Source of the DNA: Fictibacillus solisalsi
Lineage (GTDB): Bacteria > Bacillota > Bacilli > Bacillales > Fictibacillaceae
Length of the DNA: 64,000 bases
Direction: 5' to 3'
NCBI RefSeq assembly: GCF_900103485.1
Contig: NZ_FNHW01000001.1
Span: 159,418-223,417 of the forward strand
This document shows positions 47,328 to 53,049 of this stretch, piece by piece (the first letter of the stretch is position 1; each line of letters starts with the position of its first letter). The translations under genes and the position numbers were made by a program. The notes under the pieces are model-generated. The model searched no databases. It worked only from the letters and a program-made list of their open reading frames with translations, and was not told where the DNA came from.

Positions 47328-47804
47328 ATGAAAAAAGTAAAAACGAATGCGATGAGAATTCTGGACAAAGAAAAAATAGTCTATGAACCAATGAATTACA
47401 GTACGGATGACGGAAAAATAGATGGCGTGTCTGTTGCCCATAAAATCGGAAGAGAGCCGGGATCCGTATACAAGACACTGGTGGCGCAGGGGGCCGGAAA
47501 GGAATATTACGTTTTTGTAATCCCGGTGGAAGAGGAGCTGGATTTGAAAAAAGCAGCAAAGGCAGCTGGGGAGAAAAAAGTAGAGATGCTGGCGGTCAAA
47601 GAACTGCTTCCTGTCACAGGGTATGTCCGTGGCGGTTGTTCGCCGATCGGGATGAAAAAGCTTTATTTTACAATTGTCGAAGAGCAAGCAGCACAGCTGC
47701 AAACGGTCATTGTAAGCGCGGGGAAAATCGGTTATCAAGTAGAATTGTCTCCTCAAGATTTAATCAATGTAACAAAAGGCCGTTATGGGGATGTATCGAA
47801 ATAA
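47328..47804 (+). CDS. ybaK: Cys-tRNA(Pro) deacylase, YbaK type
   Basis: A 158-residue trans-editing enzyme that hydrolyses Cys-tRNA(Pro) mischarged by prolyl-tRNA synthetase. Typical features: K-T-N-A-M-R-I-L-D at the start, G-S-V-Y-K-T-L-V-A (catalytic Lys), V-I-P-V-E-E-E-L-D-L-K-K-A-A, and Y-V-R-G-G-C-S-P-I-G-M-K-K. AAGGAG precedes the ATG. It probably shares a transcript with the MFS gene. A second YbaK-domain protein is encoded at 50135. Confidence 0.9.
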   Translation: MKKVKTNAMRILDKEKIVYEPMNYSTDDGKIDGVSVAHKIGREPGSVYKTLVAQGAGKEYYVFVIPVEEELDLKKAAKAAGEKKVEMLAVKELLPVTGYVRGGCSPIGMKKLYFTIVEEQAAQLQTVIVSAGKIGYQVELSPQDLINVTKGRYGDVSK

Positions 47805-49045: not shown

Positions 49046-50062
49046 ATGATTATTTATCCATCTCTGGAAAAAGGGGCAACAATTGGTGTGACGGCGCCAT
49101 CCTCGGGTTTGTCTTCAGAGCTTCATCCCTTGCTGAAACAGGCAATTGAAAGAATGGAAAAAGCGGGTTACAAAGTGGTTTGCGGAGAAACGCCATGGAC
49201 ACAAAGCAAGGCAAAATCCGCGGATGCAACACTGAGAGCAGCAGAATTTAATGATATGATGAAAAGACAGGATATCGATCTCGTTTTCCCTCCATGGGGA
49301 GGGGAGCTGTTGATTGAAATGCTGCCTTTCGTTGAATATTCCATACAAAAACCAAAATGGATCCTCGGTTATTCGGACATAAGTGTGTTGCTGCTCGCGG
49401 TTACATTAACAACAGGAATAGCAACGGCGCACGGTACAAACCTGATCGATTTGCGGGGAGAAGAAACGGAAGCCACAACAGCCATGTGGGAAACGATATT
49501 GTCCGCATCAGAAGGTGATTCGGTGCTGCAACACTCCTCTGAGAAGTATCAGGAAAAATGGGATCACGAAAATCCTTCGCCTCATGTCTATCATCTGACA
49601 GAAAGGACCGAATGGAAAACGGTGTCCCGCCAAGCTGAACAAATCAAGGGCCGTCTATTGGGCGGATGTATTGATGTAATTCGTCATTTGATTGGCACTC
49701 CTTTTGGAAATGTCGCAAGCTTTAAAGAAGAACACATTCCCGGTGAACCGGTGATTTGGTATCTCGAAAATTGTGAGCTGAATACGGCTGATCTTCGGCG
49801 CTCATTGGTGCAAATGAAAATGGCGGGTTGGTTTAACGGGTGCTCTGGGATCTTGTTTGGCCGTAGTGCCGCCAATGAACCAGTGGGCGGATATACGGTT
49901 GAAGATGTTTATCATGATCTCGCCAAAGAGCTGCAGATCCCGGTCATCTATGACATCGATTGCGGACATGTTCCGCCACAGGTAACATTGATTAATGGTG
50001 CCTGGGCAGAAGTGGGAGTCGTTGAAGGAAGAGGAACGATTCTGCAACACTTTAAACGGTGA
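49046..50062 (+). CDS. S66 peptidase, MccF-like
   Basis: A 338-residue member of the S66 family. G-A-T-I-G-V-T-A-P-S-S-G at the start, D-L-V-F-P-P-W-G-G-E-L-L-I-E-M-L-P, and the nucleophile in L-G-Y-S-D-I-S-V are present, with the Glu in Y-L-E-N-C-E-L and the His in I-D-C-G-H-V-P-P. The P-P-W-G-G-E pattern is closer to MccF, which hydrolyses microcin C and other aminoacyl-sulfamoyl adenylates, than to LdcA. AAAGGGGG precedes the ATG. Operon with the acetyltransferase at 48587. Confidence 0.87.
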   Translation: MIIYPSLEKGATIGVTAPSSGLSSELHPLLKQAIERMEKAGYKVVCGETPWTQSKAKSADATLRAAEFNDMMKRQDIDLVFPPWGGELLIEMLPFVEYSIQKPKWILGYSDISVLLLAVTLTTGIATAHGTNLIDLRGEETEATTAMWETILSASEGDSVLQHSSEKYQEKWDHENPSPHVYHLTERTEWKTVSRQAEQIKGRLLGGCIDVIRHLIGTPFGNVASFKEEHIPGEPVIWYLENCELNTADLRRSLVQMKMAGWFNGCSGILFGRSAANEPVGGYTVEDVYHDLAKELQIPVIYDIDCGHVPPQVTLINGAWAEVGVVEGRGTILQHFKR

Positions 50063-50134
50063 TTCGATTTTTTTCGATATTTTTTACGAAACATGATAAG
50101 ATGCTAGAAATATCTGTTTGGAAGGATGAGAGAA

Positions 50135-50647
50135 ATGGCCATTGAAAGTGTTAGACAACATTTCAAACAATTCAACCGTGAACAAGATGTCAAGGAGTTT
50201 GACACATCCAGTGCAACGGTACAGGAGGCTGCTGATACGATTGGTGTTATTCCTGCACGGATTGCGAAAACCTTGTCGTTCAGGGGAGAGGGAGAACGGG
50301 CAATCCTTGTCGTGGCAGCAGGAGATGCCAAGATCGATAACAAGAAGTTCCGCCAACGATTTGGATTTAAGGCCCGGATGCTTTCACCCGAAGAGGTGCT
50401 TGACCAAACCGGACATGCGATTGGAGGAGTTTGTCCTTTCGGTTTGAAAAATGATCTCGATGTGTATCTCGATGAATCCATGAAGCGATTTGATACACTC
50501 TTTCCGGCCTGCGGCAGCTCAAACTCTGCCATCGAGCTGACCTGTGAGGAATTGTCTGCATACGCCTCGGCCAAAGAATGGGTGGACATCTGCAAAGGCT
50601 GGGAAAGCGAAGAAATCGAAGCAGAAAAAGTAAAAAGCCATTCTTAA
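50135..50647 (+). CDS. YbaK/prolyl-tRNA synthetase-associated domain protein
   Basis: A 170-residue trans-editing domain protein (YwhH/YeaK-like). A-A-D-T-I-G-V-I-P-A-R-I-A-K-T-L-S-F-R contains the catalytic Lys, followed by A-G-D-A-K-I-D-N-K-K-F-R-Q-R and I-G-G-V-C-P-F-G. Its exact mischarged tRNA substrate is unknown and differs from that of the YbaK at 47328. ATG at 50135 is used because the ATG at 50126 abuts the GGAAGG site. A terminator follows. Confidence 0.87.
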   Translation: MAIESVRQHFKQFNREQDVKEFDTSSATVQEAADTIGVIPARIAKTLSFRGEGERAILVVAAGDAKIDNKKFRQRFGFKARMLSPEEVLDQTGHAIGGVCPFGLKNDLDVYLDESMKRFDTLFPACGSSNSAIELTCEELSAYASAKEWVDICKGWESEEIEAEKVKSHS

Positions 50648-50839: not shown

Positions 50840-51107
50840 TTCCTTTTATACAGAGTTGGCTATACGATCTGCTCTGTCATTGCAACGGCAATATTTTACA
50901 GGAGATATTACCTATAGAAGGGATGTAAAACGTACTGCAACCCGCAGGGCTTTTCGTGTTTTTAATTCCGAATAAATATCTTGTAAAAGGTCTACTTAGC
51001 GACTTATAGAAAAAAGCAAGAAATAATTGGATTATTTTCCCTCAAACCATGATATAGTGGAAGGGGGTTTTCCCCGTTAACATTCATTTAAAGGAGGCTG
51101 CCACGTC

Positions 51108-51137
51108 ATGATTATCAAATGGATGAGAGTCAGATAA
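51108..51137 (+). CDS. leader peptide MIIKWMRVR
   Basis: A nine-residue ORF with the best ribosome binding site in its region (AAAGGAGG at 51090-51097, 10 bases from ATG). Its last four residues, Met-Arg-Val-Arg, fit the R/K-X-R/K macrolide-arrest motif known from ErmDL-type leader peptides. The stop lies 90 bases upstream of the hydrolase start. It probably serves as a drug-sensing leader, not as a functional peptide; this is inferred from the motif and the downstream hairpin. Confidence 0.6.
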   Translation: MIIKWMRVR

Positions 51138-51157
51138 TGATAGGTGCAGACCTGCTG

Positions 51158-51219
51158 CTCCGTTACGAGTAAAAGTTCTGCGCCTGATCGACCCGGCGTT
51201 GGATACCAAAAGTACGGAG
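51158..51219 (+). promoter_or_regulatory. hairpin sequestering the hydrolase RBS
   Basis: CTCCGTTAC (51158-51166) pairs with GTACGGAG (51212-51219), leaving one bulged T. GGAGG of the hydrolase lies in the right arm. An inner CGCC/GGCG helix extends it. Upstream, AGGCTGC (51095-51101) can pair with GCAG-A-CCT (51146-51153), which a ribosome stalled on the leader would disturb. Confidence 0.6.
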
Positions 51220-51227
51220 GGATCGTT

Positions 51228-52085
51228 ATGAAGGAAAAAATAATTTCATTTAATGGAATGGATATTTGTACAGAAAACGTTGGAAATCCGGAGGATCCGG
51301 CCATTTTACTCATCATGGGAGCCATGTCTTCGCTTGATTGGTGGGATGAAGACTTCTGCTCGGCCTTGGCTTCGAAAGGAAGGTATGTCATCCGGTACGA
51401 TCACCGTGATTTAGGCAAATCTGTTGTGTATGAACCGGGAAGTGCCAATTACACCATTACCGACCTGGCTGATGATGCGATCCGTGTGCTGGATGCCTAT
51501 TCGTTGGAAAAAGCTCATGTTGTCGGCATGTCCATGGGCGGAATGGTGGGTCAGATTCTTGCCATTCGGAATCCAGAGCGCATCCAAACACTGACGCTCA
51601 TTGCTTCAAGTGTGTTTGGAATGGAACAGGAAAAGCTTCCGCCAATGGATCAAAAAATTCTCGATTACCATGGAAAGAGTGCGACCTTAGACTGGTCCGA
51701 CCGGGAAGCGGTTGTTTCGTATCTGGCAGGAGGCTGGAAAACACTGGCCGGCTCAAAACCGTTTGAAGAAGAACGGATGAACCGGTTGGCAGAAAGAGAA
51801 ATGAACCGGGCCAAACAGCTGCAGAGCAGGTTTAATCACGCGTTTCTTGGTGGCGGAGAAGAGTTTTACGACCGAATGGGTGAGATTTCTGTTCCGGTCG
51901 TCGTGATTCATGGTACGGAGGATCCTGCTCTTCCCTTTGAGCACGGGAAGGCGCTTGCCAGGACCATTCCTCGTTCGCAATTGATTTCTCTCGAGGGCTC
52001 TGGTCATGAACTGCATCGTACAGATTGGGATACAATTATAGCTTCCCTCGTAAAAACAAGTTCTCTGGTAGAAAATAATAGATAA
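51228..52085 (+). CDS. alpha/beta hydrolase, RdmC/EstT-like esterase
   Basis: A 285-residue soluble hydrolase. The oxyanion region is L-L-I-M-G-A-M-S-S, followed by V-I-R-Y-D-H-R-D-L-G-K-S and the nucleophile elbow V-G-M-S-M-G-G (Ser102), with Asp232 (H-G-T-E-D-P) and His260 (G-S-G-H-E-L). The Y-D-H-R-D-x-G-x-S pattern groups it with RdmC-type methyl esterases of polyketides and with macrolide esterases such as EstT. ATG at 51228 follows GGAGGG; the ATG at 51144 would skip the attenuator. Its RBS is buried in a hairpin behind a leader ORF, the arrangement of inducible macrolide resistance. Confidence 0.82.
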   Translation: MKEKIISFNGMDICTENVGNPEDPAILLIMGAMSSLDWWDEDFCSALASKGRYVIRYDHRDLGKSVVYEPGSANYTITDLADDAIRVLDAYSLEKAHVVGMSMGGMVGQILAIRNPERIQTLTLIASSVFGMEQEKLPPMDQKILDYHGKSATLDWSDREAVVSYLAGGWKTLAGSKPFEEERMNRLAEREMNRAKQLQSRFNHAFLGGGEEFYDRMGEISVPVVVIHGTEDPALPFEHGKALARTIPRSQLISLEGSGHELHRTDWDTIIASLVKTSSLVENNR

Positions 52086-52097
52086 AAAAAGCAATGG

Positions 52098-52129
52098 GCA
52101 GCTGTCATTTTGACGGCTGCTTTTCTTTT
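52098..52129 (+). terminator. terminator of the hydrolase gene
   Basis: GCAGCTGTC pairs with GACGGCTGC (one G-U), then TTTTCTTTT. Confidence 0.82.
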
Positions 52130-52197
52130 GCCTGATGTTTAGAGTGAAGCGGACAGCGGGAAATAAAAAAGTAACCTAACAGAATCGGAGGAACCAC

Positions 52198-53049
52198 ATG
52201 TCTATCGCATTGAATCCCACCGAAAGCATCAGTTGCCGCAGCGAATATGCCCCCCTTGCCCGCGTCATTGTATGTGGACCACAGTACATGTCCATCTCAG
52301 AGGTTATCAATGAAACCCAACGGCATTATGCCCGCGAAAATATAAACAGACGCTTAGCCTCCGCACAGCATAAAGAGTTTGTACGTGTGCTTCGTAATCA
52401 GGGTGTAGAAGTTGTTGAATTGCCGCCAGATCAGCAATATCCGGAACAAGTGTTTACCAGGGATATCGGATTTACCATCGATTCTACTGTTTTTCTCTCT
52501 ACTATGGGAAGCGCCATCCGAAAAGGTGAAGAAGAAATATTGAAGAAATGGCTCATTTCCCAAAAGGCAATGATGCAGCAGCTGCCTGACACGAAAATTG
52601 AGGGCGGAGACGTGATCACTGACAGGGACAAGGTGTTTGTCGGGGTAAGCGGACGTACCTCGGATATTTCTATCCATACACTGCGCAACCATTTACCAGA
52701 AAAAAACGTGATGGGCATTCCTTTTGATAAAAAGTATTTGCATCTGGACTGTGTCTTCAATATTCTTTCCCCCCGGGAAGCACTGATTTACCCTCCTGCT
52801 TTTCAAAAAAAGGAACTCGACCTTCTATCCAAAATGTATGACACCATGGAAGTAAGCAAGGAAGAACAGTTCACCCTGGGTACCAATGTTCTTTCTATTG
52901 GGAATAAGAAGATATTCAGTCTGCCCTTCAACAAGAAGGTAAACAGCAAGCTTCGGGAAAGAGGCTATGAAGTAATTGAAGTAGATTTATCGGAGATTAT
53001 TAAATCCGGGGGTTCCTTCCGCTGCTGTACATTGCCTCTGGTAAGGTAA
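52198..53049 (+). CDS. dimethylarginine dimethylaminohydrolase-type amidinohydrolase
   Basis: A 283-residue pentein-fold enzyme (DDAH/amidinotransferase family, B. subtilis YkgA-like). Catalytic residues are visible: Asp89 in F-T-R-D-I-G-F, His182 in L-H-L-D-C-V-F-N, and a C-terminal Cys in G-G-S-F-R-C-C-T-L-P-L. K-I-E-G-G-D-V shapes the guanidinium site. It would hydrolyse methylated arginines or related guanidino compounds to citrulline and amine. CGGAGGA precedes the ATG. Monocistronic. Confidence 0.88.
   Translation: MSIALNPTESISCRSEYAPLARVIVCGPQYMSISEVINETQRHYARENINRRLASAQHKEFVRVLRNQGVEVVELPPDQQYPEQVFTRDIGFTIDSTVFLSTMGSAIRKGEEEILKKWLISQKAMMQQLPDTKIEGGDVITDRDKVFVGVSGRTSDISIHTLRNHLPEKNVMGIPFDKKYLHLDCVFNILSPREALIYPPAFQKKELDLLSKMYDTMEVSKEEQFTLGTNVLSIGNKKIFSLPFNKKVNSKLRERGYEVIEVDLSEIIKSGGSFRCCTLPLVR

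Follow-up and report, generated by a model that had tools for sequence, protein, structure and literature searches.

The closest described relative of the system reported here is the control region of the Bacillus subtilis RlmA-II gene yxjB (renamed tlrB), which is governed by a leader encoding the peptide MIIQFIRYR (PMC6851288). Tylosin, and not erythromycin, stalls the ribosome on this leader, while the P site holds Tyr and the A site the final Arg (PMC6851288). Changing RYR to AYA virtually abolishes tlrB induction, showing that the R-X-R end is needed, and the same study compared 180 leaders upstream of tlrB homologues (PMC6851288). In ermC/ermD-type attenuators, leader arrest frees the Shine-Dalgarno (SD) sequence of a macrolide resistance gene. 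The ErmDL peptide carries a +X+ end, Arg6-Leu7-Arg8 (PMC8298421). Outside the erm group, the Listeria resistance gene hflXr has a short leader with an RLR motif (rli80), which has 14 codons, acts by transcription attenuation and responds to lincomycin and erythromycin (PMC6310831).

Gram-positive macrolide esterases were reported as new in 2025, when six of them were expressed (PMC12704417). Their expression raised the MICs of 16-membered macrolides and not those of 14- or 15-membered ones, with effects that depended on host and promoter; these were small or absent for some enzymes in B. subtilis, in which the PBA-1 esterase caused no change (PMC12704417). The words "Leader" and "attenuat" are absent from the main text of that paper, as is the word "esterase" from the text of the tlrB paper. 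Leader attenuation is thought to control some macrolide-inactivating enzymes (PMC6851288, citing a review), so an inactivating enzyme under leader control would not be a new kind of arrangement. Here, we describe a tlrB-type leader in front of a macrolide esterase gene in the 4.8-Mb genome of Fictibacillus solisalsi, within a stretch of 64,000 nucleotides (contig NZ_FNHW01000001.1, positions 159,418 to 223,417) that we refer to as the window.

A tlrB-type leader peptide in front of an esterase gene

We confirmed that a short leader ORF precedes the EstT-type hydrolase gene (Table 1). The ORF is the one named in the initial annotation, with its own SD and the Arg-Val-Arg end described there. 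It reads ATG-ATT-ATC-AAA-TGG-ATG-AGA-GTC-AGA-TAA (ATGATTATCAAATGGATGAGAGTCAGATAA) and is followed in frame by TGA TAG; its SD, AAAGGAGG, stands 10 nt from the leader ATG, a slightly long spacing. A gap of 90 nt separates the leader stop from the esterase ATG. The putative -10 box was not reported by the consensus scan. Hairpins comparable to the small one near the inferred transcript start, with other letters, were seen by eye in orthologues.

Table 1. Features of the leader and esterase locus, in window coordinates
Feature	Position	Strand	Basis
Putative extended -10 promoter element TGATATAGT	51050..51058	+	sequence; similar boxes before orthologue leaders by eye
Small 5′ hairpin GGGG-TTTT-CCCC near inferred transcript start	51064..51075	+	sequence
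Leader SD AAAGGAGG	51090..51097	+	sequence, folding
Leader ORF MIIKWMRVR, tlrB-type, +X+ end (R7-V8-R9)	51108..51137	+	sequence; likeness to MIIQFIRYR (PMC6851288)
Segment S1 AGGTGCAG, 5′ arm of S1:S3 helix; can also pair with leader SD region	51142..51149	+	sequence, folding
Segment S2 CTCCGTTAC, anti-SD	51158..51166	+	sequence, folding
Segment S3 CTGCGCCT, partner of S1	51178..51185	+	sequence, folding
Segment S3′ GGCG, alternative S3 partner	51195..51198	+	sequence, folding
Segment S4, including esterase SD (GTACGGAGGG)	51212..51221	+	sequence
EstT-type alpha/beta-hydrolase macrolide esterase, 285 aa	51228..52085	+	profile, structure-chain alignment, sequence
Terminator-like hairpin and T-rich tail 3′ of esterase gene	52096..52132	+	consensus scan

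The window leader has the features of a tlrB-type peptide, namely nine residues, an MII start, a terminal +X+ and an immediate stop (TAA TGA TAG). MIIKWMRVR and the tlrB leader MIIQFIRYR are identical at 5 of 9 positions and similar at three others (K/Q, W/F and M/I). Given this likeness, our preferred reading of the window leader is that of a tlrB-type sensor of tylosin. The initial annotation had likened it to ErmD-type leaders; the Arg-X-Arg end on which that comparison was based is conserved, and the peptide as a whole resembles the tlrB leader. Outside the +X+ end, its residues are unlike those of ErmDL. Since the part of the peptide that precedes the +X+ end is a better match to the tlrB leader, ErmD was rejected as its closest relative.

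An ErmD-type attenuator, in which arrest is caused by erythromycin-like 14-membered macrolides or ketolides and the esterase belongs to a general macrolide response, seems improbable to us. The C-terminal Arg-X-Arg does match a general +X+ motif for telithromycin arrest that is enriched at erythromycin arrest sites (PMC8298421, PMC6238534) and that also serves in ErmDL (PMC8298421). However, the conserved MII[KQ][WF] start is common to the tlrB leader, which ignores erythromycin (PMC6851288), and relatives of the esterase brought no MIC rise for 14- and 15-membered macrolides (PMC12704417). As the tlrB leader stalls with tylosin and not with erythromycin, the expected inducers of a tlrB-type sensor here are tylosin-type 16-membered macrolides, and the predicted drug should belong to the class on which the esterase family acts.

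The hydrolase belongs to the macrolide esterase family

The hydrolase scored 448.6 bits against the NCBIfam model for alpha/beta fold macrolide esterases (NF052610, cut-off 420), in agreement with the family first proposed for it. It did not reach the cut-off of any narrower model (CBF, BCA and BRB groups, EstT and EstX); CBF (NF053693, mleCBF) came nearest, at 513.1 bits against a cut-off of 564.5. Residues 1-277 align to a PDB chain named EstT (best E 6e-97), and a chain named EstX also aligns end to end. S102 (in GMSMGG), D232 and H260 are present and probably form the catalytic triad. The PDB chains 11tu and 11tv have Ala where the hydrolase has its nucleophile Ser and are read here as crystal mutants. 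The window enzyme is thus of the same family as EstT, EstX and the Gram-positive esterases (CBF-1 of Cytobacillus firmus and others, PMC12704417) but differs from the CBF group in its score below the mleCBF cut-off. On the strength of its family, it would be expected to hydrolyze tylosin-type macrolides. Its best named relatives are from Fictibacillus enclensis (88% identity) and F. fluitans (82%).

The leader is conserved among close orthologues

One protein search matched 24 of 100 related genomes at E 1e-60 or better, and another gave 33 loci. We defined close orthologues by an identity of at least 64% and merged duplicates, which left 48 distinct ones found by protein search alone. The leader is present in 38 of these 48, and 10 are leaderless; the distance from leader to esterase start ranges from 87 to 127 nt among close orthologues. 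Only distinct loci with an esterase start were counted, leaving out L061 (partial) and L002-L007 (other hydrolases), and three distant loci without a leader (L031, L064 and L065, ~39% identity) were not counted as close orthologues. A leader-pattern search added 10 further distinct leader loci, which are excluded from the 38/48.

Among the distinct leader-bearing loci, the pattern MIIKW[IVM][RK]xR fits exactly in 44/48. The exceptions are L013 (14 codons), L048 (MMIKWVGLK), L055 (W5R) and L075 (R9 lost). L013 was omitted from the alignment and from the folding counts, giving 47 rows of the window type (class 1). Across these 47 leaders, codons 2, 3, 4, 7 and 9 vary mostly within the residue class: at residues 2, 3 and 4 the codons change and the residue is kept except for one Met2, five Arg codons are in use at Arg9 (45/47 rows), and residue 7 is Arg or Lys in 46 rows. 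Residue 8 is free and may be L, H, Q, V, I, F or E. Synonymous codon changes with the residues kept point to selection on the leader peptide. The conservation of MIIKW had suggested to us that 16-membered drugs cause arrest at codons 3-6, an idea we dropped because tlrB with tylosin stalls at the X codon (PMC6851288).

These data bear on whether the short ORF is simply translated constitutively, tuning esterase translation with no drug sensing, while the hydrolase acts on another ester. Some orthologues have degraded leaders (L013, L048, L055 and L075) or none (the ten leaderless loci), as this explanation would allow. We nevertheless consider it very improbable, as the peptide is constrained where tlrB-type arrest requires, and an enzyme type known to confer tylosin resistance has a similar peptide in front of it.

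When 397 genomes of the order were searched with the MIIKW pattern, 25 of 29 distinct places lay before an esterase gene; three of the others open a longer hydrophobic ORF and one (L093/L095) has no esterase. Named carriers of the leader include Fictibacillus, Cytobacillus, Neobacillus, Peribacillus, Rossellomorea, Priestia abyssalis and Sporosarcina globispora. A C. firmus orthologue, 68% identical, has the leader MIIKWIRHR (L051). The leader is retained where the esterase frame is broken (L030/L032, same genus) or truncated (L070).

Predicted alternative RNA pairings around the esterase ribosome binding site

Pairing of CUCCGUUAC with GUACGGAG can cover the ribosome site of the hydrolase. 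As the initial annotation had claimed for a site ninety bases on from the leader, S2 pairs with GTACGGAG of S4 (51212-51219) with one bulged U, and the latter overlaps the esterase SD GGAGGG (51216-51221). The alternative upstream helix it had noted also exists, formed by S1 and S3 with 8 pairs. Folding further predicts that the region from the leader SD to the leader ATG may pair alternatively with S1 and bases beyond it. The fold of the window stretch is mildly better than those of 200 shuffles (z -1.66, 7/200 as low).

As segment length and register differ between clades, we used per-sequence folding, clade-swapped duplex energies and shuffles after RNAalifold, which on the 47-row alignment returned eight pairs, none with a two-sided change. 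By manual count, one S1:S3 pair has a two-sided change (G-C in 22 and A-U in 12 of 47 rows). Conservation of leader and hairpin upstream of orthologues, proposed as a check in the initial annotation, was borne out for the leader and the pairing segments, but two-sided covariation is thin.

Folding, which covers pseudoknot-free structures, was averaged over the 47 loci with the RNA starting 28 nt before the leader ATG; by topology, S1:S3 and S2:S4 together would be a candidate pseudoknot OFF state. In the whole RNA, the leader SD region and the leader pair with S1, and S2 pairs with S4. Without the leader, S1:S3 emerges and S2:S4 declines. The mean unpaired fraction of the esterase SD is about 0.24 for the whole RNA compared to 0.41 in shuffles of the stretch from leader to SD. 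In a series by first free base, mean SD accessibility is 0.23 for the whole RNA, 0.43-0.44 when the first free base lies at +23 to +33 (S1 freed), 0.35 at +37, 0.27 at +39 and 0.21-0.22 at +41 to +49 (part of S1 removed). The drop between +37 and +39 places the expected stall site at the edge of the predicted ON range. The mean switch score is 0.20 compared to -0.08 in shuffles, and exceeds 0.15 in 18 of 47 loci versus 5% of shuffles; the loci are related, so these folding counts are not independent. At least three S1:S3 pairs form before S4 is made in 15/46 rows with a free leader, 29/46 at +37 and 27/46 at +39 (one of the 47 rows had no recognized S3).

The anti-SD segment S2 is conserved in nearly all of the 47 rows. 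At the three Fictibacillus loci, S1:S3 holds both with a free leader and with the first free base at +37 and +39. For the window alone, the SD is unpaired at 0.43 (RNA from 51064), 0.52 (+37) and 0.17 (+45), a weak contrast. When clades were swapped, the leader-S1 duplex went from -12.1 (native) to -10.6, and only the Fictibacillus S1 was clearly weakened (-15.3 when paired with its own leader, -7.1 and -9.8 with foreign ones). No clear difference was found by swapping for S1:S3 (native -10.9, swapped -10.6) or S2:S4 (native -9.1, swapped -9.3). A search of five loci against Rfam returned no match at gathering level. Our best reading for the window class is an ermC-like switch, an SD-covering S2:S4 helix with S1:S3 as its alternative; this model has support over the 47 loci that is weak in the window itself and thin in covariation.

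One leader type on two enzyme types

In genomes of the class outside the order, esterase orthologues (51-56% identity) have the leader MII[KQ]FIRLR or a close form. This distant esterase set comprised 35 places in 34 of 398 genomes, and we fetched 30 loci: 14 have a tlrB-like leader (with the divergent MNIHFIRLR in L105), one a degenerate leader, two a window-type leader and 13 none of the kind. A pattern search found 28 tlrB-like leaders in 28 of 398 Bacilli genomes, 13 before esterases and 15 before RlmA-type methyltransferases.

The genome of the window itself contains a second leader, MIIQFIRFR (L128; contig C4, 3251116-3251145, minus strand), which precedes an RlmA-type 23S methyltransferase gene in a locus with a tlrB-like RNA. 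The methyltransferase matches RlmA (1p91) at E 1.7e-32. Its best NCBIfam model is PRK11088 (173 bits, below the cut-off of 303), and it scores 78-86 bits, also below the cut-offs, against the G748 enzymes Erm(32), MyrA and ChrB. Together, these loci suggest a single drug sensor serving two resistance enzymes that are unrelated to each other. A Bacillus arachidis plasmid typed as mobilizable (NZ_CP127373.1; L126) carries an esterase gene (54% identity) preceded by MIIKFIRLR, so that the gene and its leader can be transferred jointly.

Separately, five genomes (G586, G611, G642, G666 and G673) have a tlrB-like leader on the methyltransferase gene and an esterase gene with a leaderless, terminator-like 5′ region; in them, the two genes are under two controls.

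The RNAs of the 28 tlrB-like leaders differ between the enzyme types. A U-run follows the S3 arm in 15/15 methyltransferase loci and 5/13 esterase loci, and S1:S3 pairing is stronger in the former (-10.5 to -16.4) than in the latter (-3.9 to -10.0). Beside the gene SD, CGAATGAA, the pairing partner of the leader's TTCATTCG, is exact in 23/28 of these loci and by eye off by about one base in the remaining five. Folds of 15 esterase loci with a tlrB-like leader have the CGAATGAA-TTCATTCG pairing in nearly all cases. In the averaged class-1 fold, we looked for the corresponding pairing between the leader arrest codons and a copy beside the SD and found no such pair above 0.22. In the window class, the S1:S3 stem is positioned as in the tlrB-like loci, at +35 relative to the start of the leader, but it has a different sequence and lacks a U-run: it is AGGTGCAG/CTGCGCCT in the window class and AGGTACAG/CTGTGCCT in the tlrB-like loci, with G-C for A-U at pair 5. 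The stem in L128 has U-A for C-G.

Alternatively, the leader and helices could exert most of their effect on transcript stability, pausing or termination, which is partly the case for tlrB, and not by uncovering the SD. In its spacing from the leader, the S1:S3 helix does match the base of the terminator-like stem of tlrB-type loci, and expression of ermB is also under mRNA stability control (PMC9178857). Against this, S2 is retained as an anti-SD, the window has CTGCGCCTGATCGACC and no U-tract after S3, the scan found no terminator between leader and esterase, and 8 of 13 tlrB-like esterase loci likewise lack the U-run. We regard control of this kind as unlikely for the window.

Leaderless loci

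In three leaderless close orthologues (L035, L037 and L052), the sequence that ends in the leader's GGAGG-like motif is joined directly to the stretch after the esterase's motif, as expected of a deletion between the two motifs. The deletion pattern is less clear in the remaining ones. Parsimony on the protein tree gives four changes in leader presence, of which well-supported branches force only one; the tree resolves poorly, with 30 of its 56 inner branches left open, and omits L070 (truncated) and L030 (broken). The predicted SD accessibility of the ten leaderless loci ranges from 0.02 to 0.80, with no sign of constitutive expression.

In the 13 distant esterase loci without a leader ORF of this kind (class 3: L109, L111, L112, L114, L116-L119 and L121-L125, of the 30 fetched), the 5′ region contains a terminator-like stem (ACAGGC...GCCTGTGTTTTTTT or one like it). 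We looked for a leader ORF before these terminators and found no convincing one, the only candidate being MCYFKFRLR in L109, which has no SD.

Neighboring genes in the window

Two proteins with YbaK-like aminoacyl-tRNA editing domains are encoded 2.3 kb apart (47328-47804 and 50126-50647), the second upstream of the esterase leader. Between them lies a gene for an S66 LD-carboxypeptidase family protein (49046-50062), a family in which some members confer microcin C resistance. On the 3′ side of the esterase, past the terminator-like site, are genes for a dimethylargininase or arginine deiminase-like protein (52198-53049) and an MreC-like protein (PF04085, 53409-54206).

Discussion

The initial annotation of this locus is partly supported. 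We think it likely that a tylosin-type macrolide-responsive attenuator controls the macrolide esterase and that the leader probably switches the esterase gene on. Within this mechanism, the component parts and how far they are conserved, the selection on the peptide, the family of the enzyme and the resemblance to tlrB leaders are shown here, and we infer the drug-dependent arrest, the induction, the hydrolysis and the exact ON and OFF folds. In the absence of drug, the leader would be translated and the ribosome released; the leader SD region would pair with S1 and S2 with the esterase SD (S4), giving poor esterase synthesis. With a tylosin-like 16-membered macrolide in the exit tunnel, the ribosome would stall when codon 8 occupies the P site and Arg9 the A site, as published for the similar tlrB leader. 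The stalled ribosome would disrupt the leader-S1 pairing, and S1, mainly its 3′ part, would pair with the emerging S3. S2 would then be trapped inside the S1:S3 hairpin, leaving the esterase SD free. The esterase made in this way would inactivate the macrolide, and the signal would drop.

The window locus and tlrB have in common a nine-codon leader of the pattern MII-[QK]-[FW]-[IVM]-[RK]-x-R with tandem stop codons, a structure able to cover the SD and a downstream gene directed against 16-membered macrolides. They differ in the downstream gene, which is RlmA-II in tlrB and an esterase in the window; in the terminator U-tract, which is absent in the window; and in what covers the SD, a pairing of leader codons in tlrB and S2 in the window. 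The freeing of the SD of a macrolide resistance gene by leader arrest, predicted for the window, is as in ermC/ermD-type systems, but the gene is one for an inactivating esterase. The Listeria hflXr leader is comparable as a short leader with an RLR motif on a resistance gene outside the erm group and differs in its length, its mode of attenuation and its inducers (PMC6310831).

In the open-access literature that we searched, we found no paper linking such leaders to esterases, and the remark in the initial annotation that this esterase type is not known to have them still stands. Within the reach of these searches, three things are new: a tlrB-type leader on Est-type esterases, the occurrence of this leader on two kinds of enzyme in one genome, and the RNA variant seen in the window class.

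We lean slightly toward a wider account in which a tylosin-sensing module is shared by the macrolide esterase and the RlmA-type 23S methyltransferase, coupling target protection with drug destruction; in this genome, each of the two genes has its own copy. The esterase copies would have shed the terminator, and the window class would have been rewired to an ermC-like translational switch with the sensor peptide kept. Deletions between GGAGG motifs would have given leaderless, perhaps constitutive, alleles in some orthologues.

The basis of tylosin-specific arrest was left open by the authors of the tlrB study (PMC6851288). The leaders described here offer a natural series of arrest peptides for probing this specificity, differing at position 5 (F or W), position 4 (Q or K) and position 8 (several residues). 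If the leader does sense tylosin, it would be a native control of Gram-positive macrolide esterases. Ancient chromosomal copies of these esterases would then be explained as inducible defenses, whose inducer range is directly testable.
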